Shown one piece after another: positions 10,509 to 48,232 of a stretch of 64,000 bases of DNA. Source of the DNA: Candidatus Nitrospira neomarina (GTDB lineage Bacteria; Nitrospirota; Nitrospiria; Nitrospirales; UBA8639); the NCBI RefSeq assembly GCF_032051675.1, contig NZ_CP116968.1, positions 372,001 through 436,000 of the forward strand, in the 5' to 3' direction. Positions within the stretch are counted from its first letter, which is position 1. Each line of letters begins with the position of its first letter. The notes beneath the pieces are model-generated. The model was not told the DNA's origin and searched no databases. It saw only the letters and a program-made list of their open reading frames with translations. The position numbers and the translations under genes are program-made.

Positions 10509-10676
10509 TTTCGCCTCCATTTTTTAAGGATTCGAAAATGAAATCGCTTCTCATACACTAGAGCCGATTGGAAGCTTAAACAAATCCGCAGTGCGCTGGT
10601 GTTCCGATTGCACTGCAATGCTTACCATGCTCGAAATTACGGGGATCTTCCTGTTTGATTTCACCAGGGTAAAGGT

Positions 10677-31396: not shown

Positions 31397-31867
31397 ATGG
31401 AAGGCATGAGTGAGCCAGGAGATCCCGAACGAATTATCTGGGAGGGCTATCCCTCGTGGGGACAATTTACGTGGCTGTATTTTTTTAGCCTGTGGACAGG
31501 ATTGCGAGGTTTCTTCCTTCTACAAATAGGATTTTCAGGATGGGAAATATGGGTTGTCGGTGCAGGAATCTTATTAGGGCTGGTGGTGGTGCTTCGATAT
31601 TGGGCCAAATATCTGCTCACGTCCAAGCGAGTGGTACTGAGGAATGGGTATTCGGGAAAAGAAATGGCGAGCGTGGAATTCGGGATATTCAAATCTGTCG
31701 AAGTTATGCAGGGACCAATAGCCAGAATGTTGGGAATTGGTACTCTTGTTATTCACTCCAAGGATTCAGGCCGGAGTGTTCGGTTCCGTGGCATCAAGGA
31801 TCCTGAGATCATTGAAACTAAATTACGGGCGCTCCTCCCTCCTTCTTCTCCCGTGTTGACTCACTAG
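31397..31867 (+). CDS. Membrane protein with bacterial PH-like domain
   Basis: A 156-residue protein. After a short polar start come two hydrophobic segments (about 25-45 and 48-66), then a compact domain beginning YLLTSKRVVLRNGYSGKE and continuing through GIGTLVIHSKDSG and the closing IKDPE, the pattern of YdbS-like bacterial PH domains (bPH2). Such proteins are membrane-anchored and of unknown role. Two ATGs are possible, 31397 and 31406; AAAGGA is better placed for the second, which would shorten the protein by three residues. It precedes the cytochrome b-like gene by about 50 bases. Confidence 0.75.
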   Translation: MEGMSEPGDPERIIWEGYPSWGQFTWLYFFSLWTGLRGFFLLQIGFSGWEIWVVGAGILLGLVVVLRYWAKYLLTSKRVVLRNGYSGKEMASVEFGIFKSVEVMQGPIARMLGIGTLVIHSKDSGRSVRFRGIKDPEIIETKLRALLPPSSPVLTH

Positions 31868-31920
31868 CCTTTCTGAATGATGAATACACCTGCTGTGATG
31901 AGAGATGAGAATAATTCTTT

Positions 31921-32508
31921 ATGATCCCGTCTCTTTCCCGTCGAACATCTCTGGTGCTCGGTTTGACTGTTCTCACCGTAGCCGGTGCCCTTTTTCTTGA
32001 ATTTCTCTTAAGTGTCAGAGCAGACAGGCCCTTCGGTCATACGCAAGTGGCGCACCTGGTTGGGTGGACCGGCCTGGTCTTCATTGGACTGACCTTTGTG
32101 TATCCACTGAAACGGTGGTTGTATCCTAATCAGGTCTGGTCACACGGATGGTTTCAGGTACACATCGTGTTTGGCATTATTGGACCCCTGATAATTTTTG
32201 TCCATGCCGGTGTGCATTTCCATGCCCTGGTGCCGATCATCGCCCTTATCAGCATGGTCCTGGTGGTGATGAGTGGAATCACCGGGCAGGCCTTGCATTA
32301 TCTGGCGTTTCGAGCATTGTACGAACGACGGCATGAACTGGCGTTTGAAGGGATGACCGAGGATGCGATTGAAGCGCATCTGCATGGTCTTGCGTTACAA
32401 GAGGAGACCCTTCGATGGTGGAAATGTATTCACGGCCCCCTGACGTGGTCATTTGTCTCTTTCACGCTGCTGCACATCGGGGGAGCCCTCTTTTTCGGGG
32501 GCCTCTAA
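31921..32508 (+). CDS. Cytochrome b561/ferric-reductase-like membrane protein
   Basis: A 195-residue integral membrane protein with about five hydrophobic helices. Histidines suited to bind haem b occur in HGWFQVHIVFG, FVHAGVHFHAL and near the C-terminus in WKCIHGPLTW and LLHIGGALFF. A cytoplasmic or periplasmic loop with ALYERRHELAFEG separates the last helices. The next gene, three bases downstream, encodes a pentahaem c-type cytochrome, so the pair probably passes electrons across the membrane between a quinone pool and periplasmic haems. This is an inference from gene pairing and haem ligands. Confidence 0.75.
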   Translation: MIPSLSRRTSLVLGLTVLTVAGALFLEFLLSVRADRPFGHTQVAHLVGWTGLVFIGLTFVYPLKRWLYPNQVWSHGWFQVHIVFGIIGPLIIFVHAGVHFHALVPIIALISMVLVVMSGITGQALHYLAFRALYERRHELAFEGMTEDAIEAHLHGLALQEETLRWWKCIHGPLTWSFVSFTLLHIGGALFFGGL

Positions 32509-32511
32509 ATC

Positions 32512-33099
32512 ATGGGATGTCGTCGACCATGGGTGGCGCCCTGTATCTGGGCTCTGACAGGTCTGGTCATTGCGACTCTGGCCTGGGCTTCTCCCATCTA
32601 CACTGAAGCCTTGTGGGCCCCTGGAGATCTTAGCCGGCATCACACTGACATTGCGGGATGTCTGTCCTGTCATGAACCTTTTAGAGGAGCTACACCCCAA
32701 AAGTGCCTGGCCTGTCATACGTTGGAAACATTTCAATCTCGATCCGAACCGGATGTTCGCCAATTGCATCAAGAGGCGAATCAATCCGGCCAAGCTTGTC
32801 TGGTTTGTCACACGGAACATCGGGGTGTGTTAACGGCCATAACTATCGGTAGGGTCAAAAATCCACATGGAGAATTGATTTTTCGGGCCACAGGCGCGAC
32901 GTCCTGCTCTGATTGCCACGTGATAAAAGGCGGCACCGGACAACAGGATGGCACATTACTACACAATTCGTATGTTGAACGGTTAATCCTGAAAGGCGAG
33001 GGTGCTCATCGACCCGGGCATTTTGCTAAATGTCTGAAGTGCCATCGTGGGGGACAGTTGGAGGTTGACGATGAGGACAAGGATGATGAGGACGATTAG
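32512..33099 (+). CDS. Exported pentahaem c-type cytochrome
   Basis: A 195-residue protein with an N-terminal hydrophobic segment (about 10-27) serving as signal peptide or anchor and five haem-binding motifs: CLSCH, CLACH, CLVCH, CSDCH and CLKCH. Extra histidines (RHH, TLLHN, GAHRPGH) can serve as distal ligands, as in class III-type multihaem cytochromes. The C-terminus is a strongly acidic tail (EVDDEDKDDEDD). It is coupled to the cytochrome b-like gene three bases upstream and is probably a periplasmic electron-transfer partner. Confidence 0.85.
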   Translation: MGCRRPWVAPCIWALTGLVIATLAWASPIYTEALWAPGDLSRHHTDIAGCLSCHEPFRGATPQKCLACHTLETFQSRSEPDVRQLHQEANQSGQACLVCHTEHRGVLTAITIGRVKNPHGELIFRATGATSCSDCHVIKGGTGQQDGTLLHNSYVERLILKGEGAHRPGHFAKCLKCHRGGQLEVDDEDKDDEDD

Positions 33100-33349: not shown

Positions 33350-33397
33350 ATGGTTCCTAGGAGGGTGCGGCAATGTCCACAAATACCGCGCCGGTAA
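33350..33397 (+). CDS. Possible 15-residue leader peptide before the receiver gene
   Basis: ATG at 33350, preceded by GGGAGGTG, opens the frame MVPRRVRQCPQIPRR and ends inside the next gene in a different frame. It overlaps the AGGAGG of the receiver gene, so its translation would affect access to that ribosome site. It may be a coupling or control device, or chance. Confidence 0.3.
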   Translation: MVPRRVRQCPQIPRR

Positions 33398-33795
33398 AAT
33401 ACAGCGGGCCATCATGTACCATTCTGGTCGTGGATGATGATGAAGCAATGCGGACCCTCCTTGTGGACGCCCTTCAAGAAAAAGGGTGCCGCGTGATCGA
33501 GTCAGAGAATGGGACAGATGCCTTGAATATCCTAAAGGCCGTGGTGCCAAATGTAATTGTGACGGACTTGAAAATGCCGGATGGCGGATTTCCCTATTTG
33601 CGGCGCCTCCAGGAAGGAGCCCCGGATTGTCCGATTGTCGTCATGACGGCGTATGGAGACAGTCAGTCCAAAGCGAAAGCGTTAGATTGTGGTGTCAAGG
33701 GATATTTCGAAAAACCTCTTCGTATTTCTGATTTGAAGGCATGGATTTGTCAAATGTGTTTGGTGAATCCCTGCGGGAACCTTCCGTTTTATTGA
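33373..33795 (+). CDS. Single-domain response regulator (receiver)
   Basis: A 140-residue CheY-like receiver without an output domain. The acidic pocket is VVDDDE, the phosphoacceptor is D65 in VTDLKMPDGG, the threonine is in VVMTAYG and the lysine in GYFEKPL. Standalone receivers act in phosphorelays or bind partners. The sigma-54 activator gene starts 40 bases downstream and lacks a receiver, so this protein may serve as its missing receiver in trans. No histidine kinase lies nearby. AGGAGG precedes the ATG. Confidence 0.85.
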   Translation: MSTNTAPVKYSGPSCTILVVDDDEAMRTLLVDALQEKGCRVIESENGTDALNILKAVVPNVIVTDLKMPDGGFPYLRRLQEGAPDCPIVVMTAYGDSQSKAKALDCGVKGYFEKPLRISDLKAWICQMCLVNPCGNLPFY

Positions 33796-33834: not shown

Positions 33835-35256
33835 ATGGCCGGATCGTTAGATTCTGATTCCGATGTGTCTTGGAGTGCGCGGATCGAAGGATTAAAGTTT
33901 CTGGCGCAGCATGTGGATGAGCCGGTTGTGATTTTCAATCCCCGGAAGGAATTGGTGTATGCTAATCCTTCAGCCAATAAAATAGCCAAAGACTGTCCAT
34001 TAACCCTTTCATCATCCATTTCTTCTTCTTCCGATTCTTCCAACTCACAGGCTTCCAATCAGCCACCTTGTGACCCCTGTCACGCCATGGAACTGTTTCG
34101 GTCTGACAGACAAGTTCAGGATACATTTCCCTGTCCTTCCCCTTCAGCTGTCGCCACGCCTGGATGTCCGTTTCCACGTGCGGTGCCCTTGAAAAGCAGG
34201 ACCGGTATGACCCATGTTGCGATATTGATGGGGGCTCGGGGAAGTGAGAGCATTATGATGGTTCCACAGGAGGAGGATTCATCTGACCCGCCTGCATTGG
34301 CTGGGGATTCCTTTCCGGAGACCGTGCCTCCCACCATCATCGGAGATAGTGAGCCGATTCAACAACTGGTGGAAATGGTTCGATTGATCGCCGCGAGTGA
34401 GGCAACGGTGCTCATTCAAGGGGAAAGTGGAACGGGCAAGGAATTGGTGGCAAAGACCATTCATGCCTTGAGTCGGCGACGCCTCCGGCCATTTATTGTG
34501 GTGGAATGCAGTGCAATGCCCGAAACCTTGCTGGAAAGCGAATTATTTGGTCATGTACGTGGGTCCTTTACCGGAGCGGTCGCTGATCGCAAAGGCTTGT
34601 TTGAAGAAGCCGAAGGCGGCACGATTTTTTTGGATGAAATAACTGATACCACTCCTGCATTCCAAGCCCGCTTACTTCGTGTCCTGCAGGAAGGCGAAAT
34701 CAAGCCCGTGGGGAGCAATGGATCCATCAAGGTGAATGTGAGGGTCATCTCTGCCGGGAATAAATCTCTGGAACATCTTGTGGCAAACAAGTCGTTTCGT
34801 GCGGATTTATACTATCGGCTCGCCGTCCTCCCGCTCACCGTCCCGCCCTTGAGGGAGCGGAAAGAAGATATTCTATTATTGGTGAAATATTTTTTGGAGC
34901 AATGCGCCAGAAAGCACGGGCGTGAGCCAATGCATCTCAGCCCCGATGCCCAAACGGCTCTCGTGCACCATTCGTGGCCTGGGAATGTCCGGGAATTAGA
35001 AAATTTGATTGAACGGGTGGTGGTCACTTGCCCGCATTCCACAATTGAAGTGAAAGACTTTTTTGCGGATCATTCGTTGCAACCTGACAAAAGCGATTTG
35101 AGTTCGATCGGGAAAATCGCTCGCCAGGAAGCGGAACGGTCAAGAATCCTCCAAGCCCTCCGGGATGCGAAGGGAGATAAGACCCGCGCAGCGCGGGCCT
35201 TGAATATCAGTCGATCCAGCCTTTACAACAAATTGCGGGACTATCATATTTCCTAA
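33835..35256 (+). CDS. Sigma-54-dependent activator (PAS-AAA+-Fis HTH)
   Basis: A 473-residue NtrC-family activator without a receiver. Residues 15-140 form a PAS-like sensor containing a Ser-rich insert (59-75) and cysteines in CDPCHAMEL, FPCPSP and PGCPFP. The AAA+ domain has Walker A GESGTGKE (196-203), the sigma-54 contact loop GSFTGA (243-248; the common form is GAFTGA) and Walker B GGTIFLDE. The C-terminal Fis-type helix-turn-helix ends in YNKLRDYHIS. Both downstream oxidase genes carry sigma-54 promoters with upstream inverted repeats, so these are its likely targets. The cysteines may bind metal or sense redox, by analogy with other PAS proteins. A remnant of its 3' end recurs at 40977. 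Confidence 0.9.
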   Translation: MAGSLDSDSDVSWSARIEGLKFLAQHVDEPVVIFNPRKELVYANPSANKIAKDCPLTLSSSISSSSDSSNSQASNQPPCDPCHAMELFRSDRQVQDTFPCPSPSAVATPGCPFPRAVPLKSRTGMTHVAILMGARGSESIMMVPQEEDSSDPPALAGDSFPETVPPTIIGDSEPIQQLVEMVRLIAASEATVLIQGESGTGKELVAKTIHALSRRRLRPFIVVECSAMPETLLESELFGHVRGSFTGAVADRKGLFEEAEGGTIFLDEITDTTPAFQARLLRVLQEGEIKPVGSNGSIKVNVRVISAGNKSLEHLVANKSFRADLYYRLAVLPLTVPPLRERKEDILLLVKYFLEQCARKHGREPMHLSPDAQTALVHHSWPGNVRELENLIERVVVTCPHSTIEVKDFFADHSLQPDKSDLSSIGKIARQEAERSRILQALRDAKGDKTRAARALNISRSSLYNKLRDYHIS

Positions 35257-35304
35257 ACGGCTCCCCTTTTTTTGCCCCTAAAATCCTCATTTTCTCATTT
35301 CAAT

Positions 35305-35322
35305 TGTCCAGTTTTTTAGACG
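35305..35322. promoter_or_regulatory. Likely activator binding site (UAS), copy 1
   Basis: TGTCCA-N6-TAGACG is a partly degenerate inverted repeat about 180 bases upstream of the promoter, a usual distance for sigma-54 enhancer sites. The second copy (41083) is a perfect TGTCCA-N6-TGGACA. The sequence around it, beginning TTCAATTGTCCA, is conserved in both copies. Confidence 0.5.
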
Positions 35323-35484
35323 GGCAACTGATTGATTTCTCGTCGAAATTTTTCGTGCATTGAAAAGCCTGTCCAAGATTCTGGAATTTCTCACCATTCT
35401 TCCGTTGTCTCTTCTCACCTGATTGTGCCCTGAAATTCTTTCCAGTATTGGTTGTTGTGATTTGGAGCATTGATAGGTGTTCTT

Positions 35485-35500
35485 TGGCACTGTTGTTGCT
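35485..35500 (+). promoter_or_regulatory. Sigma-54 (-24/-12) promoter, copy 1
   Basis: TGGCAC-N5-TTGCT matches the sigma-54 consensus TGGCAC-N5-TTGCW, with exact GG-N10-GC spacing. Transcription should start near 35511, giving a leader of about 205 bases. It lies directly downstream of a sigma-54 activator gene. Confidence 0.8.
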
Positions 35501-35513
35501 CAGGCATTCAATC

Positions 35514-35587
35514 GCCGACGCTGGATAGGGTGTGATGGACCGGCCTCCGGAATGCCCGACCTCCCACAAGGGGCGCCTTGCGTCGGC
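35514..35587 (+). ncRNA. Conserved folded mRNA leader, copy 1
   Basis: A closing stem (GCCGACGC 35514-35521 with GCGTCGGC 35580-35587) encloses a core that is identical for about 36 bases in the second copy, followed by a hairpin (CCTC/GGGG). A CCGG-CCT-CCGG hairpin lies in the core. The element begins about three bases after the predicted transcription start. I do not recognise it as a known riboswitch. It could sense a metal or control transcript stability. Confidence 0.5.
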
Positions 35588-35716
35588 ACAAAAAAAATAC
35601 GGGGCCGGGCCATTCATTGAAGAGACGAACATCTTGAAATGATTGAGGCGAGTGAGTCGATGGAGTGCCAAAAATGAGGGTTTTTTATTCACAACTTAAA
35701 TTTAGGAGGCCGGAAA

Positions 35717-38700
35717 ATGTATCCAGGCAAGAGTAGATTTCTAACCGCGTCGATGTTCTTGGCGTTGATGGGAGGAGCGAGCTTTTGGCTTGGCCCATCT
35801 GTTGTCGGCGCCGAAAATGCCTCTGCTCCACACGTTCATCAAACGGGCATGGCTCATCAGGAATCCTCAGGTTGGGCTGAACAACTGAAAGGACAAACCC
35901 GTGTGGAGGATGCATTGGAAGGGCGGGCAGGTCTTTCTGAAAAAATCGAAGTGCAACATCACCGAATCATGCGGAGACTTGAAGAGCAGGGACAACAGGA
36001 TGCGCAAGTCCAAGCGAACTCCGGAGTATTTAATAATGTCTCGATGATGCATCAGTACATGGGGCAGGATGGATCCAGCTATTTGTTAGCGGTGGATCCT
36101 GATGCGGCTCTGTCCACCGGGTCGGGTGCAAAATGCCCGGCTGGCGTGCCCACCAAACATTACGATATCTCCATGATCGATACGGAGATTACCCTCAATC
36201 GATGGCTGGATTATTATGTCGGTTACATGTATGTGTTAACGGACAACATTGATAAAGTCCGCGCTGAAGAGGCCCAAAACAAAGCCGCCCGGGATAAAGA
36301 TGGGTGGGATCCCGGGGCGGTGACGACGGGATTACAAGGGGATTACATCCAGCCTCTTGCCATCCGGGCCAATCAAGGGGATTGTTTGAAAATCACCCTT
36401 CGGAACCAAATGGAGATTGAAAGTGGAAGTCTCCATGTGAACGGTGGAAGCATGGTGATGTCCACGACGGGGAAAGCGGCATCCACTAGCAATCCCGAGA
36501 CGGTTGTGGAGCCGGGAAATAGTGTGGAGATGGAGTGGTACATTCACCCTCAAACACAAGAAGGAGTGAGAAGATTTCACTCCTATAGCAATGCGCGTGA
36601 ATTGACGGTCATGGGGCTTTTTGGTGCCTTGATCGTTGAACCGGCCGGATCGAAGTACCTGGATCCGTTAGGAACAGGGCCTGCCCCGGAACTGCAATCA
36701 GGATGGCAGGCGATCATCGACAATGGATCCGGTCATGACTTCCGCGAATACATCATTTTCTATCACGAAGTCGGAGACGAAGCATTCCGGCCGGTGAACA
36801 AGAAAGGGGACTTTTTACCTCAACGCGATCCATTGACGGATGCCTATCGTCCGGGCGGTCGTGCGCTCAATTATCGTAGTGAGCCTTTCGGAATCGATGA
36901 AATGCATGTCCAGCACGAATATTTCGGATTCGAAGATGAATCGTTAGCTTACAGCGCTTATACCTTCGGCGATGCGCCGACGACTATTCCCCGGGGGTAC
37001 CTTGGTGATCCCATGAAATACCGAATTGTTCACGGGGGATCCGAAGTGTTTCATTCGCACCATCCGCACAGTGGGTCGATCCGGTGGCAACGAAGCCCTC
37101 GTGCAGACCAACAAGAGCATTGGTATTTGGGAAAAGACGGCCCGGTGAAATATCCCGTCGTCCGCACAAAATCAGACCGTGTGGATGTGGAAGTGATCGG
37201 ACCGTCCGAAGCCTTGGATCTTGAACCCGAATGCGGGTCGGGGGGATGTCAACACTTGGCGGGAGACTTTTTATTCCACTGCCATGTCGCCCACCACTAT
37301 GTGGCGGGAATGTGGGGATACGGTCGGGTATATAACACCCTACAGGTTGGTGATGTCCGGACTGACATTATGGCGGACTTACGTGAATTGCCTGATCGTC
37401 AAGGGCGGGTCAAAGTCGGTGTCAGTTCCGATAAATTAATCGGGACCACCGTCGATTGGTTCGGTAAGCAGTTCAAGATTGTTGATAAGAGCCAGAAATC
37501 AAACTGGAAATCCAATCCAGCCGTTGTGAACATTAAAGACTGGGTGGAAATGTACCTGCCCGCCATGGGCAAACCCGGCCACACGGATGACGAAAAGGGC
37601 CAGGTTATGGCCTATGACGGCACTGTGTGGGATTGGAAATGGGACGGGAATGTGGCGAAAGGGGAGCGGGAAAGTACGACTCCGCATCCGAAATACCCGA
37701 CTGCTGTGAAGTGGGATGACAGTACTCGGCCCGATATTCTTTTTGATCCGACCACGGGTAAAGTTGCCTGGCCGGTCTTGAAGCCTCATTTTGGAAAGCG
37801 TGTGCCATTCTCTGCCAACCATAGCGGGGCTCCCTGGCTGGAGCCGATCCACCAGGATGAAAATGGAGAGCGGACGTCTGAACCCGCTAAGCCGGGTGAG
37901 CAAGGGCGCTGGAGTCTCTGTCCGGAAGGTGCCAATGTTCCGAGATTGAATAATATTCACTTCATTCGGCTTCCCATAGAACTGACGCCGAAACAGGGGA
38001 ACCAGGAATCGATTGTCGACCAAGACGGTCTGATCTATGTGCTTCACGAAGAAGAGCGTTTGACGAGGGCCGACAACAATCTGAAATACCCGGCGGTTCT
38101 TCGTGCCAACGTCTATGATTGCGTCGATACCATTCTGACAAGCGAATGGGATGACGATGATTACACCAATTTTCAGTCGTCGAAGATCAATATTCATCCT
38201 CATTTCTTCCAGTTCGATACCGGAGCCTCTGACGGTGTGATCTCGGGGATGGAATGGGAAATGTCCGTTAGGCCGTTTACCATGTTCTCGAAGCCGAAGA
38301 AGGCCGGTTTGCCGGTTCCGATGAATAGCAAGTTGACCAAGGCCGTCAAGGCAGGGGCCAAATCCATCACCATCAAGATGGCCGAAGGGGCCAGCAAATA
38401 TCATGTCAATACCGAGTTGTTGGTGGGTGCGGATTGTTTGCAAGCCGACAACGACCCGACGACGTCGTTGAAGCGTGATCGGAGTTGTTCGGAAATCGCC
38501 CGGATCAAGGAGATTAAGGGCGAGACGATCACGTTTGTGAAACCACTTAAGCATGATCATCCGACCGGAGATATCGTAACGCCGGAATTTGTCCGGTACC
38601 GGTATTGGGTGGATTCGGATACCGGAACGGTGTTCTGGCATGATCATGCGTTCGGGGCAACCACCTGGCCGCACGGCGGGTTCGGTGCCACGATTGTGGA

Positions 38701-40648
38701 GCCGTTTGGATCCACCTATCATGACCCGAAGAACGGGAAGTTGGTGTATAGCGGTCCAATCGCGGACATTCATACCAACGAACCGGTGGGCTTCGGGGTG
38801 AGCGGAAGTTTCCGTGAGTTGATGGTGTCCATCCACGATACCGTGCCTCATACGGTCAACGTCATTCAGGCGGGGAATCCTCCAGGGCAGCCCATCGAGG
38901 TGGCGTTGGAAGCCGGGAAAACGGTGTCGTTCCAAATGCCTGAAAAAATCCAAAATGCTCCCAACCCCTTCTTGAACGGGGGAACGCATACCACCGGGAG
39001 CGGATTTAACTTCCGGGCTGAGCCGTTTGCGTTGAGATTGAACAATAATCCCGATACCTCGAAATTGTTCAGCAGCGCGATTCATGGCGATCCGGATACG
39101 CCGTTGCTTCAAAGTTATGTCGGAGACACCATTGTGTTCCGGTTGTTGCATCAGTTGATGAATGAGTCGCATGTCTGGACGCTGTCGGGCCATACCTTCC
39201 TGACGGAACGGTATGCGGGCGACGCCAATCGGAAGTACTCCATCCATGTGGGGATCGCCGAGCGGTATGACCTCGTGACCAAGGCAGGCGGTTTCCAAGG
39301 TATGCCCGGTGATTACATTCACTTCAACGGACGGAGTTCGCACTTCGCCGAAGGTGGATGGGGAATCATTCGGGTGTTGGACAAGAAAGTGCCTGATCTG
39401 CAGGTGCTCCCGATGGGAACGAATCCGCTCGGAATTCCTCCGGTGCCGAGTTCGTTGTGTCCAGCAGATGCGCCGGTGAAATCTTTCAACGTCGTATCTT
39501 TGGATCGCCCGTTGAAGTTGCATCCCAATGCCCCGGACACCATCGAAGTGGACTTTGAGCGAAAGATTGAAATGACCGTACCGGACGGAAAGATTTTTGC
39601 ACTCGAAGAGGAAGCCACCAAGGTGGCGGGCAACGTGATGCCGAATCCACTGACCTTACGTGTGAATCTCGGCGATTGCATCAAGGTGAATCTGAAGAAC
39701 AAGATGGCCAAGAGCCGGGCGTCCTTCTTCGCCCCTGGTCTGGCATTCGATCCAAGGGATTCTCATGGACTCAACGTGGGGAATAATCCTGGGGATCAGA
39801 CGGTGGCGCCAGGTGAAAGCCGGACATACACCTTCTATGCCCATCCCGACAACAAAGAAACCACGTCGTTGGTGTGGGATGGCGGGAATATTATTCTCAA
39901 TCCGCGAAACGGATTGTACGGCGCCGTGATCGTCGGCCCTAAGGGCTCGCAATATCGGGATCCTGTGACAGGCGAAGATCTCTCACAAAAGAACGCCTGG
40001 CGGGCGGACGTGATTATCGATCATACGTTGGTCGAGAACGCCGGTAAGCAGAACTATCGGGATGTCGCCTTGTTTTTCCAGGATGAGGACAACATTATCG
40101 GTACCTCATTCATGCCCTACGTGCAGAACGTGGCCGGATTATCTTCCGTGAATTATCGTGCAGAACCGGATAAATTCCGGGAGGAGCAGGGCTGTACGTT
40201 GGATAAGATGTTCCAACCCTGTGCGGTCGACAAGCCCGTTGATCCCGTCACGCCTTTAATCGAGGCGCATGCCGGTGATGTGGTCCGGATACACGTAATC
40301 GGGGCGAACAGCGAGCAAAACGGCATGTTCCAGGTCGAAGGCCACGAATGGCCAATCGAACCCTACATGCCGGGTGCCGATATGATCAGCGTGGTGGAAT
40401 TCGGTGGATCTGAGACTCTGGATGTGTTCCTCCGCCAGGGGGCGGGCGGACCTGCAAACATTCCCGGGGATTATATTTGGGCCAATGCCCGTCTGAACTA
40501 TCAGCAGGCTGGTCAGTGGGGATATTTGCGAGTCCTGCCGACAGGTGATCAGAGAATTCTTCCGTTGGGAGCCACGATGTCGAACGCCAAGCGGGTAGAA
40601 TCTCAACCTGAGCCAAAAGTTCTGCCAACCGCGATGGTAAGGCCCTAA
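35717..40648 (+). CDS. Giant exported multicopper oxidase (McoA/MnxG-size), copy 1
   Basis: A 1643-residue protein with a signal peptide (cut near VVGAEN) and many cupredoxin domains. Copper motifs include HSHHPH (446-451), HCHVAHHYVAGM (521-532, with the type 1 Cys522, His527 and Met532), HPHFF (827-831) and WHDHAFG (H975, H977). Such length is unlike laccases (about 500 residues) but like the Mn(II)-oxidising McoA and MnxG of Pseudomonas. The N-terminal part also repeats YDISMIDTEITLNRW-type blocks in later domains. It should act in the periplasm or outside the cell; Mn(II), Fe(II) or Cu(I) could be the substrate. AGGAGG precedes the ATG. The tandem copy lies 837 bases downstream. Confidence 0.85.
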   Translation: MYPGKSRFLTASMFLALMGGASFWLGPSVVGAENASAPHVHQTGMAHQESSGWAEQLKGQTRVEDALEGRAGLSEKIEVQHHRIMRRLEEQGQQDAQVQANSGVFNNVSMMHQYMGQDGSSYLLAVDPDAALSTGSGAKCPAGVPTKHYDISMIDTEITLNRWLDYYVGYMYVLTDNIDKVRAEEAQNKAARDKDGWDPGAVTTGLQGDYIQPLAIRANQGDCLKITLRNQMEIESGSLHVNGGSMVMSTTGKAASTSNPETVVEPGNSVEMEWYIHPQTQEGVRRFHSYSNARELTVMGLFGALIVEPAGSKYLDPLGTGPAPELQSGWQAIIDNGSGHDFREYIIFYHEVGDEAFRPVNKKGDFLPQRDPLTDAYRPGGRALNYRSEPFGIDEMHVQHEYFGFEDESLAYSAYTFGDAPTTIPRGYLGDPMKYRIVHGGSEVFHSHHPHSGSIRWQRSPRADQQEHWYLGKDGPVKYPVVRTKSDRVDVEVIGPSEALDLEPECGSGGCQHLAGDFLFHCHVAHHYVAGMWGYGRVYNTLQVGDVRTDIMADLRELPDRQGRVKVGVSSDKLIGTTVDWFGKQFKIVDKSQKSNWKSNPAVVNIKDWVEMYLPAMGKPGHTDDEKGQVMAYDGTVWDWKWDGNVAKGERESTTPHPKYPTAVKWDDSTRPDILFDPTTGKVAWPVLKPHFGKRVPFSANHSGAPWLEPIHQDENGERTSEPAKPGEQGRWSLCPEGANVPRLNNIHFIRLPIELTPKQGNQESIVDQDGLIYVLHEEERLTRADNNLKYPAVLRANVYDCVDTILTSEWDDDDYTNFQSSKINIHPHFFQFDTGASDGVISGMEWEMSVRPFTMFSKPKKAGLPVPMNSKLTKAVKAGAKSITIKMAEGASKYHVNTELLVGADCLQADNDPTTSLKRDRSCSEIARIKEIKGETITFVKPLKHDHPTGDIVTPEFVRYRYWVDSDTGTVFWHDHAFGATTWPHGGFGATIVEPFGSTYHDPKNGKLVYSGPIADIHTNEPVGFGVSGSFRELMVSIHDTVPHTVNVIQAGNPPGQPIEVALEAGKTVSFQMPEKIQNAPNPFLNGGTHTTGSGFNFRAEPFALRLNNNPDTSKLFSSAIHGDPDTPLLQSYVGDTIVFRLLHQLMNESHVWTLSGHTFLTERYAGDANRKYSIHVGIAERYDLVTKAGGFQGMPGDYIHFNGRSSHFAEGGWGIIRVLDKKVPDLQVLPMGTNPLGIPPVPSSLCPADAPVKSFNVVSLDRPLKLHPNAPDTIEVDFERKIEMTVPDGKIFALEEEATKVAGNVMPNPLTLRVNLGDCIKVNLKNKMAKSRASFFAPGLAFDPRDSHGLNVGNNPGDQTVAPGESRTYTFYAHPDNKETTSLVWDGGNIILNPRNGLYGAVIVGPKGSQYRDPVTGEDLSQKNAWRADVIIDHTLVENAGKQNYRDVALFFQDEDNIIGTSFMPYVQNVAGLSSVNYRAEPDKFREEQGCTLDKMFQPCAVDKPVDPVTPLIEAHAGDVVRIHVIGANSEQNGMFQVEGHEWPIEPYMPGADMISVVEFGGSETLDVFLRQGAGGPANIPGDYIWANARLNYQQAGQWGYLRVLPTGDQRILPLGATMSNAKRVESQPEPKVLPTAMVRP

Positions 40649-40680
40649 TCATCGTTAAGGGAAGAACGGTCGAATTTGTC

Positions 40681-40710
40681 GGGAGAGCTGCACAAATGGT
40701 GCGGCTCCCC
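40681..40710 (+). terminator. Imperfect stem-loop after the first oxidase
   Basis: GGGAGAGCTGCAC and GTGCGGCTCCC pair with two mismatches around a short AAAT-containing loop. No T-run follows, so it may be a processing or attenuating structure rather than a strong terminator. Confidence 0.4.
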
Positions 40711-40976
40711 CGGCTCATTTGAGAAAGAGGACATGTCTGAGTGCATCAAAAAGAGCCAGGGTTGGATTGAGAATTCGGGGTATTTCTTTTCGATGGACAC
40801 GTCCTCCTTTTGCAGTGCATAAGGATTGAAATCCATTCAGGAAAATTTGAGTGAGATCCTCAATGATTCACCCACGCATCTTGGAGGATAGGGAAGGAAG
40901 GATTGTCGTGGAGATGAAGAAATCCCAAGAAGTATCGAGCAAGAGTCGATAGTTCAGATCATTCCTGGCCGCTCAT

Positions 40977-41036
40977 GCCTTGAGTCCCGGTTGCTCCTGC
41001 CGCTACCACAAATTGCCGGGTTATCATATTTCCTAA
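40977..41036 (+). pseudogene. Remnant of the activator's Fis helix-turn-helix
   Basis: Nineteen codons and the stop, in frame, read ALSPGCSCRYHKLPGYHIS. The end of the intact activator reads ALNISRSSLYNKLRDYHIS. The match extends at DNA level through the stop and into the following spacer. It marks the left part of a duplicated unit. Confidence 0.85.
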
Positions 41037-41082
41037 TCTGCCCAATTTAATGCCCCAAAAATCCCCATTCCAAGCGTTCAAT

Positions 41083-41100
41083 TGTCCAATTTTATGGACA
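41083..41100. promoter_or_regulatory. Likely activator binding site (UAS), copy 2
   Basis: A perfect inverted repeat TGTCCA-N6-TGGACA lies about 180 bases before the second sigma-54 promoter, at the same relative place as copy 1. A dimeric Fis-type activator would suit such a site. Confidence 0.55.
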
Positions 41101-41262
41101 CACAACTGCTTGATTTTTAGTTGAAATTACAAAGGTTCGGAAATGTTGGTCCAAGGTGTTGGACATTCTGCCCCGTTGTGCATTTTTCCATTCCTTCCTG
41201 ACAGTCTCCTGAAGTCCCCCCCAATAAAGCTTTTGCGGTTAGGAGCATGGATGAGTGTTCAT

Positions 41263-41278
41263 TGGCATCGATGTTGCG
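41263..41278 (+). promoter_or_regulatory. Sigma-54 (-24/-12) promoter, copy 2
   Basis: TGGCAT-N5-TTGCG keeps exact GG-N10-GC spacing. Start of transcription is expected near 41289, one or two bases before the closing stem of the leader element. Confidence 0.75.
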
Positions 41279-41289
41279 GAACAGGTTGA

Positions 41290-41365
41290 TGCCGACGCTG
41301 GTTTGGGTGTGATGGACCGGCCTCCGGAATGCCCGACCTCTCCAAGAGGATTTCTGGCGTCGGCA
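41290..41365 (+). ncRNA. Conserved folded mRNA leader, copy 2
   Basis: The closing stem is nine bases (TGCCGACGC with GCGTCGGCA). The core is identical to copy 1 for about 36 bases, and the second hairpin is CCTCT/AGAGG where copy 1 has CCTC/GGGG, so pairing is kept although the bases differ. This supports a selected RNA fold. Confidence 0.5.
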
Positions 41366-41485
41366 CTTAACAATCAAGTATCCGGCCGGGCTGTTTTTCG
41401 AGAACTTGAGATGCTGGAAACAAGTTGTCTGGTTGAGAGTAAAACATTTGATCTTTATTCACCCCATATGTAAGGAGGCCGGAGC

Positions 41486-44400
41486 ATGTATCACGGCAAG
41501 AGTAGATTTTTAACTGCGTCTATATTGTTGGCGCTGATGGGGGGGGTAGCCTTCTGGGTTACCCCAGCCTTTGTCAGTGCTGAAAATGCATCTCCCCCCC
41601 ACGCCCATCAGACGGGGATGCCGGCGCAATCTCCTGGTTGGGCCGAACAGCTCAAGGGCCAGACGATTGTGGAAGATGCCATAGAAGGGCGGGCCGAACG
41701 GGCGGCCCTGGTCGAGCAGCAGCATCACCGCATGATGGAGCAAATGCAGAAGGATATGGAGCATAAAGGTGCCGATACGGGTGCCTTTGATTCCATGTCG
41801 ATGATTCACCAATATGGAGCGGGGCCGGCGAATGGCCTCCTGGCAAGTACTCCAGGTGTGGAGCCGGTGTCCATGAAAGGAGGGTTATGTCCCAAGACAG
41901 CGCCCGTCCGAAGTTACGATGTGTCAGCCATTGATGTGGAAATCAGCCTGAATCAATGGCTGGATTATTATCCCGGGTACATGTATGCCTTGACTGAAAA
42001 TATTGACAAGATTCGTGAGGAGGAAGCCAAAAATGCCGAGGCTCGTGAGAAGGAAGGGCATGCCGATCCGGGGGCTGTGAAAAACGGCATTCAGGATCAG
42101 TGGATACAACCATTGGTGATTCGCGGCAATCAAGGAGATTGCGTCAAGGTTACGTTGCGTAACCAATTGGAATTCGGCGAAGAAGTCAGTTTCCATATCA
42201 ATGGGTCTGACATGGTGATGAGCAAGACCGGCCAGCCGGCGACGACGACCAATCCAGACACGGTAGCGGCTGAAGGCCAGACCATTGAGATGGAATGGTA
42301 CATCCATCCCGACACGCAGGAAGGTGGGAAACAATTTCATACCTACAGCAATGACCGGGAACTGACGGTTATGGGACTCTTCGGCGTCTTCGTTGTGGAG
42401 CCCCGCGGATCGAATTATTACGAGCCCTTGGGTACGGGGCCGGCCACGGAAGCCACGAGTGGCTGGCAGGTGATGATTGATAATGGGGATGGTCCAGACT
42501 TTCGGGAATTTGTCTTGATTTATCATGAAGTCGGGGATGAAGCGTTTCGTCCCGTAAATAAGCATGGAGACTTTCTCCCTCAACGGGATCCACTCACCGA
42601 TGCCTATCGTCCGGGTGCCCGGGCTCTCAATTATCGGAGTGAGCCGTTCGGTATCAACAATATGCACGTGCAACATGAATATTTTGGATTTGAGGATGAG
42701 TCAATGGCGTATAGTTCCTATACCTTTGGTGATGCCGCCCCAACGATTCCCCGAAGTTATTTAGGTGACCCGGCTAAATTCCGTATTGTCCATGGTGGAT
42801 CGGAAGTTTTCCATTCGCATCATCCTCACGGCGGGTCGATTCGGTGGCAACGAAGTCCACGTGCGACGCAGATGCCGGTCTGGAGTACGGGGCAAAACGG
42901 CCCTGTGAAATATCCGGTGATTCGGACGAAGTCGGACCGGGTCGATGTGGAAGTGATTGGGCCATCTGAGGCGTTAGATCTGGAGACCGAATGCGGCTCG
43001 GGGCTTTGCCAATGGTTGGCGGGAGATTTTCTCTTTCACTGTCATGTGGCGCATCACTATGTGGCCGGTATGTGGGGCTACTGGCGTGTGTATAACAGCC
43101 TGCAAGAGCCAGGTGTGCAAAATGACGTCATGGCGCCTTTGCGGGAATTACCGGACCGGTTAGGCCGAATTCACAAGCCTGTGACTTCCGATCAACTAGT
43201 GGGCAAGACCGTCAATTGGTTTGGCAAGCAATTCAAAATTGTGGGTAAAGGCAAAAGTGATTGGAAAGCCGAGCCCGCCGTCGTCAATATCAAAGACTGG
43301 GTGGAAATGCAGCTCAGCAATCAAGGCAAGCCTGGCCATAAAGATGACGAGGCCGGTCAAATGAAGGCCTATGATGCGACCGTCATGGATTGGGTCTGGG
43401 ATGGTTCGAAGGCCATGAGCGAGAAAGAACCGACGCTTGGGGAAAATCCCAAATATCGGCCCGAGTGGCAGGGATATACAGCCGGTGAACGGCGTGCCAT
43501 TTGGTTTGAACCGTCAACCGGAAAAGTGGCGTGGCCGTGGCTCACGCCACATTTCGGAAAACGGGTACCGTTTTCCAATGATCATAATCCGGCTCCATGG
43601 TTGGAAATGATCCGGTTGAATCCGGATGGAACACGGTCGGTCGAACCGGCCAAGGCCGGCGAAAATGGCTCATGGAGTCTGTGTCCGGATCGAGCCGGAT
43701 CACAGGATTACAAGGTGCATTTTATTAAGTTGCCGATAGAATTGTCGGCTGCCGAAGGAAAAGAGCCGGCGATTGTCGACCCCAATGGGCTTCTCTATGT
43801 TGTGCATGAAGAAGAGGAAGAGGTGCGAGCCAACAACGACAAAAAATTCCCGTTAGTGGTTCGGGCGAATGTCTATGATTGCATCGATTGGACGCTGACC
43901 AGTGAATGGTTGGATGACGATATCACGAATTTCCAGTCGTCCAAGATCAACACCCATTTCCATTTCTTCCAGTTCGATAATCAGGCATCCGATGGGGTGA
44001 TTTCAGGATTTTCGTATGAACAGTCTATGCGACCGTTTACCCAATTCGAGAAAAAGTCGGATAAAGGGTTACCGGTGCCGATGAATGCGAAGGTGACGAA
44101 GGCCGCCAAGAAAGGTGACAAAACCTTGGAGGTTTCGAATGCCAAACAATATCACGTGGGCATTCCCATATTGATTGGGGCGGATAATGTCAAAGGCCAG
44201 GAGGTGCGACGGATTGTCAAAATTAATGGTAATACGTTGACCTTTGCCCAGCCCTTGAAGAATGCGCATCCCGTCAAGGACATTGTCACCGTGGAATATG
44301 TGCGGCAGCGGTTCTGGGTGGATGCGGATGTCGGGAGTGTGTTCTGGCATGACCATGCCTTTGGTGGTACGACGTGGCCACATGGGGCGGTCGGAACCAT

Positions 44401-46369
44401 GATTGCCGAACCCTTCGGCTCCACGTGGCACGATCCGAAGACCGGGAAGCGGATTCGTTCGGGTCCGGTCGCCGATATTCATGCGGTCGAGCGTGTGGGA
44501 CATGATGTGGCCGGCAGCTTCCGTGAATTAATGGTGCATATCATGGATACCGTGCCGCACACGGTGAACATCGTGACCGCGGGCAATCCTCCGGGGCAAC
44601 CGGTGGATGTGGCGTTGGAAGCGGGTCGGACAGTGTCGTTCATCATGCCGCCGAACGACAAAATTAAAATGACGCCTATGCCATTCCTGAATGGCGGTAC
44701 GCATACCACCGGGGGAGCGTTGAATTTCCGGTCCGAGCCGTTTGCACAACGATTGGCCAATAACCCGGAGCCGTCGCAAATATTCAGCAGTGTGGTGCAT
44801 GGTGATCCGAGTACGGCTATGGTCAGGGCTTACCTTGGCGATGCCATTGTGTTCCGGCTGTTGGATGTGACAATGAATGAAAGTAATGTGTTCACATTGT
44901 CCGGCCATACGTTCTGGTCAGAACGCTATGCGCAGGAAGCCAATCGCAAACATTCGCTGCATATCGGTATTGCCGAACGGTATGACCTGGTCATTCCGGA
45001 AGCGGGTGGCCCGCGTCATCAAGCCGGCGATTATATGTTCTTTAATGGCCGGAGCTCGAAGTTTTCGGAAGGCTCCTGGGGGCTGATTCGGGTCTTAGAT
45101 AAGCCGGTGAGTGATCTGCAGCCCTTGCCGAATAAAGCCTATGGCAAAGAAGGCATGCCGGAGCGATTGCCGGTTTGTCCGAAAGAGGCTCCGGTGAAGA
45201 GCTTCAATGTCGTGGCCCTGGACCATCCGGGGATGAGCTTTAATAGCAATGCTCCGGAAACGATTGAAGTGGACTTTGAACGCAAAATTGAATTGCGTAA
45301 TCCTGAAGCCAAGATCTATGTCCTCGAAGATGAGGTGCAAAAGGTCGGAAGTGATGTGCAACCCATGCCGTTAACGTTACGGGCGAACGTGGGTGACTGC
45401 CTCCAAGTCAAATTGACGAATAAGCTCAAAGAAGGGCGAGCGTCGTTCTCGGCCTTCGGACTGGCTTTCGATCCCAAAGATTCCCAAGGCCTCAATTTGG
45501 GGAACAATCCCGGAGACCAAACTGTGGCGCCCGGTGAATCCCGGATGTACACCTATTATGCGGATCCCTTCAATGGCGAAACGCAAACCTTGGTGTGGGA
45601 TTGGGGAAATGTGTCCATGAATCCCCGCAACGGTTTGTACGGGGGAATCATTATCGGTCCCAAGGGATCACAGTACCGTGATCCCAAAACGGGGGAAGAT
45701 ATTTCCCTGAAAAGTAGTTGGAATGCCGATGTGATTGTGGATCGGACTATTCAGGGCAATGAGAACCGGGTGAGCTACCGGGATGTTGCCTTGTATTTCC
45801 AGGACGAGGATAACATCATCGGAACCAGTTTCATGCCCTATGTGCAAAATGTGGCAGGGCTGACCGGCGTCAACTATCGCGCCGAACCCTATCTCCATCG
45901 GGAAGAAGCCGGTTGTTCATTGGGCCGTATGTTCCAACCGTGTCAGGTTGACGAGCCGCAGGATCCTGCGACACCGTTGATTGAAGCCCATGCGGGCGAC
46001 AAAGTACGGATTCACGTCTTTGGCGCCAGCAGTGAGCAGAACGGGATGTTCACGGTGGAGAAGCATGAATGGCCGATCGAACCCTTTCTGCCTGGCGCGG
46101 ATATGATCAGCACCGTGGAGTTCTCGGGTTCGGAAGGTTTGGATGTCTTCCTGCCCTCGGCTGGAGGCAAATGGTCCCTGGCCGGAGATTACGTGTGGAG
46201 CAATGGCCGGTTACCCTATTCCCAATCGGGGCAATGGGGATATCTCCGGGTGTTGCCGAACACGGATCAACGGATTCAGCCATTAGATGGTTCGGCCATG
46301 TCTTCCAAACAGGCAACTCTTGATGAACCCAGTGGCGAGCCGCGAATCATTTCTACCGTCACGAAATAA
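41486..46369 (+). CDS. Giant exported multicopper oxidase, copy 2
   Basis: A 1627-residue paralogue of the first oxidase, similar along its whole length, with a signal peptide (cut near FVSAEN). Copper motifs are HSHHPH, HCHVAHHYVAGM (518-529; Cys519, His524, Met529), HFHFF (824-828) and WHDHAFG (H955, H957). Relative to copy 1 it lacks a stretch near residues 895-915 that in copy 1 contains two cysteines (ADCLQ, RSCSE); this loop difference may matter for function. GGAGG precedes the ATG. A strong terminator follows at 46400. Role as for copy 1: periplasmic or outer-surface metal oxidation is likely, substrate unproven. Confidence 0.85.
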   Translation: MYHGKSRFLTASILLALMGGVAFWVTPAFVSAENASPPHAHQTGMPAQSPGWAEQLKGQTIVEDAIEGRAERAALVEQQHHRMMEQMQKDMEHKGADTGAFDSMSMIHQYGAGPANGLLASTPGVEPVSMKGGLCPKTAPVRSYDVSAIDVEISLNQWLDYYPGYMYALTENIDKIREEEAKNAEAREKEGHADPGAVKNGIQDQWIQPLVIRGNQGDCVKVTLRNQLEFGEEVSFHINGSDMVMSKTGQPATTTNPDTVAAEGQTIEMEWYIHPDTQEGGKQFHTYSNDRELTVMGLFGVFVVEPRGSNYYEPLGTGPATEATSGWQVMIDNGDGPDFREFVLIYHEVGDEAFRPVNKHGDFLPQRDPLTDAYRPGARALNYRSEPFGINNMHVQHEYFGFEDESMAYSSYTFGDAAPTIPRSYLGDPAKFRIVHGGSEVFHSHHPHGGSIRWQRSPRATQMPVWSTGQNGPVKYPVIRTKSDRVDVEVIGPSEALDLETECGSGLCQWLAGDFLFHCHVAHHYVAGMWGYWRVYNSLQEPGVQNDVMAPLRELPDRLGRIHKPVTSDQLVGKTVNWFGKQFKIVGKGKSDWKAEPAVVNIKDWVEMQLSNQGKPGHKDDEAGQMKAYDATVMDWVWDGSKAMSEKEPTLGENPKYRPEWQGYTAGERRAIWFEPSTGKVAWPWLTPHFGKRVPFSNDHNPAPWLEMIRLNPDGTRSVEPAKAGENGSWSLCPDRAGSQDYKVHFIKLPIELSAAEGKEPAIVDPNGLLYVVHEEEEEVRANNDKKFPLVVRANVYDCIDWTLTSEWLDDDITNFQSSKINTHFHFFQFDNQASDGVISGFSYEQSMRPFTQFEKKSDKGLPVPMNAKVTKAAKKGDKTLEVSNAKQYHVGIPILIGADNVKGQEVRRIVKINGNTLTFAQPLKNAHPVKDIVTVEYVRQRFWVDADVGSVFWHDHAFGGTTWPHGAVGTMIAEPFGSTWHDPKTGKRIRSGPVADIHAVERVGHDVAGSFRELMVHIMDTVPHTVNIVTAGNPPGQPVDVALEAGRTVSFIMPPNDKIKMTPMPFLNGGTHTTGGALNFRSEPFAQRLANNPEPSQIFSSVVHGDPSTAMVRAYLGDAIVFRLLDVTMNESNVFTLSGHTFWSERYAQEANRKHSLHIGIAERYDLVIPEAGGPRHQAGDYMFFNGRSSKFSEGSWGLIRVLDKPVSDLQPLPNKAYGKEGMPERLPVCPKEAPVKSFNVVALDHPGMSFNSNAPETIEVDFERKIELRNPEAKIYVLEDEVQKVGSDVQPMPLTLRANVGDCLQVKLTNKLKEGRASFSAFGLAFDPKDSQGLNLGNNPGDQTVAPGESRMYTYYADPFNGETQTLVWDWGNVSMNPRNGLYGGIIIGPKGSQYRDPKTGEDISLKSSWNADVIVDRTIQGNENRVSYRDVALYFQDEDNIIGTSFMPYVQNVAGLTGVNYRAEPYLHREEAGCSLGRMFQPCQVDEPQDPATPLIEAHAGDKVRIHVFGASSEQNGMFTVEKHEWPIEPFLPGADMISTVEFSGSEGLDVFLPSAGGKWSLAGDYVWSNGRLPYSQSGQWGYLRVLPNTDQRIQPLDGSAMSSKQATLDEPSGEPRIISTVTK

Positions 46370-46436: not shown

Positions 46437-46501
46437 GAGTGGGTGGTTCGATAGAATGTCCATAAGGATGACAATCATTTTATTTTTTGTGGGAGGAGAG
46501 A

Positions 46502-47422
46502 ATGAAGGGCCGAAAAGTATGGAAAGGGATCGTAGGGGTTGGGCTTCTAGCGCTGTTCGCGCAAACCGCATGGTCCTACGATGAAATAACCGTGACTGAT
46601 GGGGGAACCATTCAAGGGAAAGTGACCATTAGGGGCGATAAGCCAAGACCCATGGCCTTTAATCTGGTGACGATCCCCGATCCGGTGTTTTGTGGAACCA
46701 TCTCTACGGGAACGGGTTGGCGCATTGTTGAGGATTTTATTATCGGGCCTGATCAAAGCCTTAAGGATGTGGTGGTGTTTCTCAAAGATATCGAAAAAGG
46801 GAAACCGTTTCACATGCCGAAGGTCAGGATCGAATCAGTCGACTGTGAATTTATTCCCTTTGTAAATGTCTTGCGCGATGGGGATGAACTGACCGTAGTC
46901 AACATGGATCCGGTCGAGCATGATATTCAGGCCTATGAAACGGCCAGAGAGCGAGGGGCCAGGGTCTTGTTCAATCGTCCCCTCCCGATGAATCCGTATC
47001 ACAACGTGGCGGGAATATTCGGCAAGAAACACCTTCCCGGTGAACCCATGGTGGAAAAAATACATTTACGAAAAGGACGGAATGTGTTTGTCATGCAGTG
47101 CGGGTTCCATCCCTATATGTTTTCCTGGGGACTCGTGTTGGAGAGCCCCTATTATGCGATTACTCCCGAGGATGGAACCTTTGCAATTACCGACGTGCCT
47201 CCTGGAAATTATATGCTGACTGCCTGGCATCCCGGAATGAAGGAGTTTGTGGAACAACCCATCACGGTGACGGCTCAGAAGGCCACGGTGGCGAATTTTC
47301 AGTATGAGGCTCCCCAAGGCCGTCGTAGTACGCATGAAATAGAGGAGAATCCCCGGTTTGGATTGGAGTTATTGGAAGAAGGCCTGGAAATTGTACCTTC
47401 GATTAGACGCCAGATTCCCTAA
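46502..47422 (+). CDS. Exported cupredoxin-like protein, paralogue of 28243
   Basis: The start ATG at 46502 is set by GGAGGAGA just upstream; a signal peptide follows (cut near TAWSYDE). The 306-residue protein has NMDPVEHDI (H140) and CGFHPYM (C200, H203, M206) as a probable type 1 copper site, then the beta domain AITPEDGTFAITDVPPGNYML. It shares this layout, and FCGTISTGTGWR, with the protein at 28243. Position directly behind the oxidase suggests it accepts or donates electrons in the same periplasmic chain, but it has its own transcription unit because of the terminator between them. Confidence 0.75.
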   Translation: MKGRKVWKGIVGVGLLALFAQTAWSYDEITVTDGGTIQGKVTIRGDKPRPMAFNLVTIPDPVFCGTISTGTGWRIVEDFIIGPDQSLKDVVVFLKDIEKGKPFHMPKVRIESVDCEFIPFVNVLRDGDELTVVNMDPVEHDIQAYETARERGARVLFNRPLPMNPYHNVAGIFGKKHLPGEPMVEKIHLRKGRNVFVMQCGFHPYMFSWGLVLESPYYAITPEDGTFAITDVPPGNYMLTAWHPGMKEFVEQPITVTAQKATVANFQYEAPQGRRSTHEIEENPRFGLELLEEGLEIVPSIRRQIP

Positions 47423-47599
47423 CGGGCTGTCATGCGTGCCACGCCCCAAGGACCATGGCGAGTGGTCACGCGGCAGACGAGGGAAACTCATGACGGAAAG
47501 TCCAAGAACAGGAGACGTCTCCTGAGGTAGCCCGCTCGAAGCAAGGCAACAGGATGTTGGTTCATTCACTGAAGTATGACGGATGAAAGGAGGGCGACC

Positions 47600-48232
47600 A
47601 TGGGTTTACGGATATTGTCCATAGGAATCGTGCTTGGGGCAATGGTGTGCACGGGCGGTTGGGAGAGCGCACACGCCGCGGGAGAGGAGGAATCTGAAGT
47701 CCGGATGGCACCAGGGACTGAAGTGAATTTCTCTCCAGAGGTTGTGGCCGGGTATATCCATACGGTGATTGCCGCAGACAGAGCGCTCTATACGACACAT
47801 GTAGTGGATCGCATGCAGGAGAATCGAATTGTCATTGCCGCAGAAGCCTGGAAGCAGCGGAAGGCGCTTCCGCTCCCCGCGCAAATGCTTTTGATGAGTG
47901 GACGAGTGGCCGAAATGGGGGGGTCCGGCCTGCGATATCGTCTGGCCAGTCTGTGGCCTATTTATGAGGAAAATGGGCCGAGCACCGCCTTTGAGGAGGC
48001 CGGATTAAAAGTCGTGGCCGAGAATCCCGATGAGGTCTATAGTGGAATTATCAAGAGAGGGGATCAACGGTTTTTCAAAGCCATTTATGCGGATCGGGCT
48101 GTTTCCAAAGCCTGTGTGGACTGCCACAACGGGCATTTGTTGAGTTCAAAGCGTGATTTTAAAATGGGCGATGTGATGGGTGCAATTATCATCTCGTTTC
48201 CGCTGCCTACAGAAAAAAAGGAAACTCCCTGA
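47600..48232 (+). CDS. Exported Tll0287-like single-haem protein
   Basis: The ATG at 47600 has AAAGGAGGG six bases upstream and opens a signal peptide (cut near AHAAGEE). The 210-residue protein has the Tll0287-like fold features: a long helical N-terminal half (VAGYIHTVIAAD..., RYRLASLWPIYEENGPSTAFE) and a C-terminal haem motif CVDCH (C172-H176) in ACVDCHNGHLLSSKRDFKMG. Such domains occur as haem-containing sensors and electron carriers. It lies 180 bases after the cupredoxin gene, and could belong to the oxidase-associated electron chain. Confidence 0.8.
   Translation: MGLRILSIGIVLGAMVCTGGWESAHAAGEEESEVRMAPGTEVNFSPEVVAGYIHTVIAADRALYTTHVVDRMQENRIVIAAEAWKQRKALPLPAQMLLMSGRVAEMGGSGLRYRLASLWPIYEENGPSTAFEEAGLKVVAENPDEVYSGIIKRGDQRFFKAIYADRAVSKACVDCHNGHLLSSKRDFKMGDVMGAIIISFPLPTEKKETP

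Follow-up and report, generated by a model that had tools for sequence, protein, structure and literature searches.

The locus described here raises the question of what two neighbouring giant multicopper oxidases (MCOs), each placed behind its own sigma-54 promoter, are made for, and how a cell would decide when to make them. Members of Nitrospira, which drive both nitrite oxidation and complete nitrification, have respiratory genes in multiple near-duplicate versions. The window analysed, meaning the whole 64-kb stretch of DNA, corresponds to positions 372001-436000 of a single-contig, complete Nitrospira-type genome of 4.80 Mb, and the original prediction made for it was that of a possible Mn(II)-oxidation locus.

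Organization of the locus and its sigma-54 control

On the forward strand of the window, a stand-alone receiver domain of 140 aa (33373..33795; Pfam Response_reg, 1e-24), which stands beside the activator in relatives too, is followed by a sigma-54 activator of 473 aa (33835..35256) with a Cys-containing N-terminal domain, an AAA+ domain (Pfam Sigma54_activat, 6e-67) and a Fis HTH (1.6e-11), then by the giant oxidases MCO1 (1643 aa; 35717..40648; Cu-oxidase_3, 7.9e-16) and MCO2 (1627 aa; 41486..46369), by an exported plastocyanin-fold protein of 311 aa (46487..47422) and by a Tll0287-like CxxCH haem protein (47576..48232; Pfam, 1.2e-14), the last being kept in close relatives only (L005, L055, L061). 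The arrangement originally predicted, with a receiver, a sigma-54 activator and two giant exported oxidases each behind a -24/-12 site, is confirmed by open reading frames, Pfam matches and site scores; both oxidase frames are open and have hydrophobic N-termini, and the receiver and activator genes lie just upstream of 35257-46369, the interval to which the prediction had been assigned. Of the PAS-AAA+-Fis description of the activator, the AAA+ and Fis parts stand on Pfam evidence; for the N-terminus, which looks PAS-like to the eye, there was no match to a PAS model. Elsewhere in the window, 8388-10520 and 19450-21816 encode two large proteins with hemopexin-like repeats (YFFKG.EY.R pattern), recognised by eye only.

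The -24/-12 site of MCO1, TTGGCACTGTTGTTGCT (35484..35500), is the top-scoring one of the whole window and that of MCO2, TTGGCATCGATGTTGCG (41262..41278), also scores high, which places both among the best such sites in 64 kb; the former is conserved in position and sequence in relatives. The motif itself is conserved, its TTGC being present in 44 of 44 loci with a fixed spacing to the leader element described below. Sites scoring at least 13 precede 24 of the 42 MCO1-type genes of relatives, as compared to 2% in shuffles, and only 4 of 45 MCO2-type genes, the MCO2 of the window being among these four. Further upstream, inverted repeats resembling activator-binding sites precede MCO1 (35304..35385, with TTGTCCAGTTTTTTAGACGG at 35304-35323 and TGTCCAAGATTCTGGA at 35370-35385) and MCO2 (41082..41164, with TTGTCCAATTTTATGGACAC at 41082-41101 and GTCCAAGGTGTTGGAC at 41149-41164). 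Sites of the form TGTCYA-N4-6-TRGA are found 107-129 nt before the promoter in 29 of 41 relatives and at a frequency of 0.2% in shuffles, and the loci with TGTCYA-N6-TGGA sites are largely those with an activator gene nearby. Among 19 activator homologues encoded upstream of MCO genes, Cys79, Cys82 and Cys111 are invariant. A -24/-12 promoter, an AAA+ activator and upstream sites hence occur together as a sigma-54-controlled unit, and the predicted control by a resident activator is conserved in relatives. The activator, which probably takes its information from the adjacent receiver and from a Cys-containing sensor domain of its own, would bind the TGTCYA-N6-TGGA sites and, to judge from the conserved sites, fire the sigma-54 promoter. 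A fair sigma-54-like site, TTGGCACAGAGGTCGCA, is also present at 31272, upstream of PH-domain, membrane and multihaem genes (31397-33099).

R1, a structured RNA in the oxidase leaders

Beginning at the putative sigma-54 start site, the leaders of both oxidases contain a structured RNA of about 90 nt, here called R1, whose RNA nature is well supported and which would open the transcript at once. The R1 element of MCO1 occupies 35510..35599 (P1 stem 35514 to 35587; loop GGACCGGCCTCC at 35537-35548; covariance model 66.5 bits, E 5.6e-13 over the whole genome) and that of MCO2 occupies 41287..41376 (P1 stem 41291 to 41364; loop at 41314-41325; 73.5 bits, E 8.8e-15 over the whole genome). Its fold, derived from covariation, consists of an 11-bp stem around a hairpin with the near-invariant loop GGACCGGCCUCC. 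The -12 element and the R1 loop are separated by 34-38 nt in 44 of 44 loci, and the distance from the loop to the ATG is variable. In the relative L020 and others, extra GGAGGCCGG copies lie between R1 and the ATG and could compete for the R1 loop (anti-anti-SD).

In an alignment of 42 sequences that was not fitted to the structure, 97% of the pairs are kept and 55 double-change cells are counted versus 12 in shuffles; in an alignment of 67 model matches that was fitted to the structure, 97.7% of the pairs are kept, 16 of 21 pairs show double changes, and 93 double-change cells compare with 18 after shuffling and with no more than 17 after sliding. R1 thus has covarying helices in the leader of one gene family, and the RNA claim rests on this covariation, since the folding of single leaders is unremarkable (z -0.7 and -1.3). 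Adjoining the sigma-54 promoter as it does, the conserved block could in principle act as DNA, being an activator or IHF site. This is highly improbable and was rejected, given that the block lies downstream of the promoter, that its nested stems covary with G-U intermediates and that distinct activator-like sites are present upstream.

Within its own genome the R1 covariance model detects the two MCO copies of the window only, and among 296 Nitrospirota genomes it detects R1 in 82, every one in the order Nitrospirales. An MCO match lies less than 800 nt downstream of at least 48 of 63 R1 hits compared, an MCO follows in 14 of the 14 loci inspected with no counter-example seen, and in every case that could be checked the gene downstream of R1 encodes a giant MCO. 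On the MCO tree, whose root means nothing because its single MnxG-like outgroup (G024) sits on a very long branch, R1 is confined to the clade of MCO1 and the different clade of the window MCO2; just two changes are needed for this distribution, so that the same leader is carried by two MCO clades. A scan of the window and relatives with Rfam 15 gave no match at the gathering score, for R1 or otherwise, and the names that appeared below it (mir-184, bxd_2, narK and uc_338) were dismissed as chance.

Complementarity of the R1 loop to oxidase start sites

The R1 loop is the exact complement of GGAGGCCGGUCC-AUG, the ribosome-binding site of paralogous MCO genes without R1, including the third copy of this genome. 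The 12-nt loop sequence is the same in all 42 sequences of the alignment, for whose collection this very string had been used, and only a few remote copies detected by the model have it in altered form. The reverse complement of the loop, GGAGGCCGGTCC, directly precedes the ATG in 25 MCO genes without R1, copy 3 again included. The corresponding 15-mer GGAGGCCGGTCCATG, comprising the 12-mer and the ATG, occurs at 51 places in the 296 genomes, of which at least 45 are MCO starts, as compared to one place for the reversed control. The loop is hence specifically complementary to the ribosome-binding site of a target, as an antisense element is. In this genome, the 12-mer is found at four places, namely the two R1 loops, the copy-3 start and one other. 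The latter (C1:4578182; L094 ~1440-1512), which adjoins a perfect 12-bp inverted repeat, GTAGGGTGAAGG/CCTTCACCCTAC, is possibly a separate small RNA sharing the seed.

A shorter match links the loop to the genes that carry it. The ribosome-binding site AGGAGGCCGG is present at 35704..35713 before MCO1, where 9 nt are complementary to the R1 loop, and at 41473..41482 before MCO2; GGAGGCC is found at the start of 36 of 43 MCO genes with R1 versus 34 of 202 other genes with GGAGG (p 6e-17). By duplex energy with the loop region, the copy-3 start ranks 2nd of 582, and the cis sites, with matches of just 7-9 nt, are unexceptional at ranks 117 and 54 of 582. A long match to the sister gene combined with a short match to its own gene would be expected if trans pairing is tight and cis pairing reversible. 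The copy-4 start, in which the 12-mer is absent, suits neither pairing in cis nor pairing in trans.

In four R1-bearing relatives (L025, L033, L051 and L062) the sister start reads GGAGGTCGGTCC, with a G-U pair to the loop retained, and in one genome (L021/L072) a change in the target leaves one position unpaired. Some R1 genomes lack the exact 15-mer, several of them having a G-U-compatible variant, and in a few Nitrospirales genomes the 15-mer is present with R1 undetected. No compensatory changes between loop and target were found, because the loop hardly varies. The 12-mer at the start could be an ancestral relic of the MCO family; against this, the 45 nt preceding it have drifted to 42% majority identity in a set picked with a relaxed form of the 12-mer pattern.

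A compact covarying structure at the 5' end of a single mRNA type, with a near-invariant core and an SD-complementary segment, could also be a riboswitch binding a metal, a redox metabolite or another ligand, in which the loop would form the aptamer core, the own gene alone would be controlled and the match to the sister would be secondary; the further GGAGGCCGG copies between R1 and the ATG in several relatives would suit such a device. This is unlikely, however, since the 12 most conserved nucleotides coincide precisely with the complement of the sister MCO start, a property not required of an aptamer, and since no known riboswitch family in Rfam matched. R1 does resemble 5'-leader riboswitches and small RNAs with anti-SD loops in being a structured 5' RNA with an SD-complementary loop, but differs from them in having been detected solely with giant MCO genes of Nitrospirales, in its absence from Rfam 15 and in a match of 12 nt to where a paralogous gene starts.

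The oxidase family and the question of Mn(II) oxidation

The homology to MnxG assumed in the original prediction holds: Bacillus MnxG (9bxa) is the sole PDB match of MCO1 by sequence (E 2.5e-84) and by far the best one of MCO2 (E 9e-77). Judged by sequence, the window MCOs are distant relatives of this enzyme of the MnxEFG complex, with homologous domains and one-to-one His-rich copper motifs. They differ from it in retaining the His of the type-1 motif HCHxxxH, a residue replaced by Ala in the aligned block of Bacillus MnxG, in being longer and in having a cupredoxin partner adjacent. The copper-ligand motifs H446-x2-H449-x-H451, H521-C-H-x3-H527-x4-M532, H827-x-H829 and H975-x-H977 are intact in MCO1 and MCO2, and all four are also intact in the two further paralogues at C1:2639455 and C1:2939367 (63-68% identity to MCO1), which bring the number of MCO copies in this genome to four. 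An AlphaFold model of MCO1 residues 141-1000 was poor (pLDDT 57).

Both oxidases lie far from the Pseudomonas-type MnxG model, MCO1 and MCO2 scoring 106.6 and 126.8 bits against the NCBIfam NF041487 equivalog cut-off of 3100, which was reached in none of 41 genomes searched. In another genome of the same family, Nitrospiraceae, an additional MnxG-like MCO of 1920 aa scores 649 bits, and a closer MnxG relative therefore exists apart from the window MCO family; it is encoded on the minus strand (L137 5828-11590) and has a lipoprotein-like N-terminus. The nearest named relative of MCO1, at 95%, is from a Nitrospirales MAG. With class membership taken from kinship labels, MCO2-like proteins (E<=1e-60) are found in 114 of 296 Nitrospirota genomes, which are 114 of 114 sampled members of the class Nitrospiria and none of 182 others.

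Each of the four copies in this genome has a cupredoxin-type gene in its vicinity, and in relatives such a gene follows most MCO genes. The AlphaFold model of the window protein (pLDDT 79.7) resembles plastocyanins between residues 112 and 218 (88 residues at rmsd 2.4 A; Z 10.5), and its four type-1 copper ligands, H145/C205/H208/M211, are invariant across 37 sequences. Encoded on the other strand and located 4 kb upstream from the receiver, a second cupredoxin-type paralogue stands alone at 28243-29211 of the window. MCO copy 4 and its cupredoxin partner are flanked by two nxrA-like/receiver/nxrB-like operons, which argues for a respiratory setting. This cluster spans L090 1009-19830, and the small receiver between its alpha and beta genes is unusual.

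It is quite possible that the MCOs serve nitrite-oxidation electron transport or ROS defence at the NXR system, the window pair being an inducible isoform (for example at low copper or low oxygen). The location of copy 4 and its partner between two nxr operons, the blue-copper fold of the partner of a class-wide family and such an MCO in the NXR cluster of N. gracilis (PMC3578206) all point in this direction. NXR alpha (E<=1e-150) is encoded in most Nitrospirales genomes sampled, its lack from some being set aside as possible collapsed multicopy assembly. However, 15 of 15 sampled Nitrospiria genomes outside this order have the MCO and none of them has an NXR alpha match at the same threshold, and the family is hence not tied to NXR alone.

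The possibility originally predicted, namely a dedicated Mn(II)-oxidation locus comparable to mnxG/mcoA in Pseudomonas putida GB-1, would agree with the MnxG homology of both oxidases, with a Cys-containing regulator and with sigma-54 control, as reported for P. putida promoters (PMC11930936); a giant MCO behind a sigma-54 promoter is common to the window and the MnxG/McoA system with MnxS/MnxR. In contrast to that system, the window MCOs remain far under the MnxG equivalog cut-off (107/127 bits), and the locus has the receiver and AAA+ activator as separate proteins plus an RNA leader. The proposal is further weakened by the four copies in this genome, the universal presence of the MCO in a class where most sampled members encode NXR, copy 4 inside an NXR cluster and the plastocyanin-fold partner, and has become improbable. 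The window family appears to carry out copper chemistry of a core respiratory or periplasmic kind; the metal-oxidation label is unproven and now less likely, with oxidation of Mn(II), Fe(II) or Cu(I) still conceivable. Most likely, the MCO would transfer electrons between O2 and a donor in the periplasm, possibly a respiratory carrier or a reduced metal, and the plastocyanin-like protein encoded downstream would be its partner.

A model for the control of oxidase copies

MnxG-like MCOs in nitrite oxidisers are already known. An MCO similar to MnxG of Bacillus SG-1 was described in Nitrospina gracilis and Ca. Nitrospira defluvii by Lucker et al. in 2013, with Mn(III)-based ROS protection as the idea for its function (PMC3578206), and two 'novel MCOs' are known from Ca. 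Manganitrophaceae (PMC9040806). The former, giant, periplasmic, MnxG-like and NXR-linked in one locus, very likely belongs to the same family as the window MCOs. L020 of Ca. N. defluvii is 78% identical to MCO1 and has R1 and a sigma-54 promoter; it would be the N. defluvii gene named in the passages on this oxidase in PMC3578206, which describe no sigma-54 unit, RNA leader, cupredoxin partner or complementarity between paralogues. The R1 leader is the new part, and was also unmentioned in the original prediction.

Overall, the best explanation, and a probable one on comparative grounds, is that a sigma-54-made leader regulates the translation of MCO genes through base pairing, which would take place in cis and possibly also in trans. 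Each of the two copies of this giant periplasmic MCO, whose family is class-wide, would have a special regulatory unit of its own, in which the R1 loop would act as an anti-Shine-Dalgarno sequence. In cis, it would pair with GGAGGCC(G) at the start of its own gene, throttling translation. In trans, the 12-nt loop would pair perfectly with the start of R1-less sister MCOs such as copy 3 (C1:2644321), and given this perfect match, sigma-54 induction of an MCO could turn down its sister. A leader of a sigma-54-induced MCO mRNA that doubles as an antisense RNA silencing a paralogous start, so that one isoform is made and another is off, is put forward tentatively, and equally tentative is the part of this antisense reading by which the complementarity of loop and start has been kept across an order of nitrifiers. 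The pattern suggests that the cell may choose between MCO copies at the RNA level.

As a conserved, uncatalogued RNA tied to a single giant copper-enzyme family, R1 offers a direct handle on isoform control. The loop-target match, if true, would provide a compact case of an mRNA leader that switches between paralogues, and the trigger of R1 would show the purpose of the MnxG-like oxidase, a question dating from 2013.
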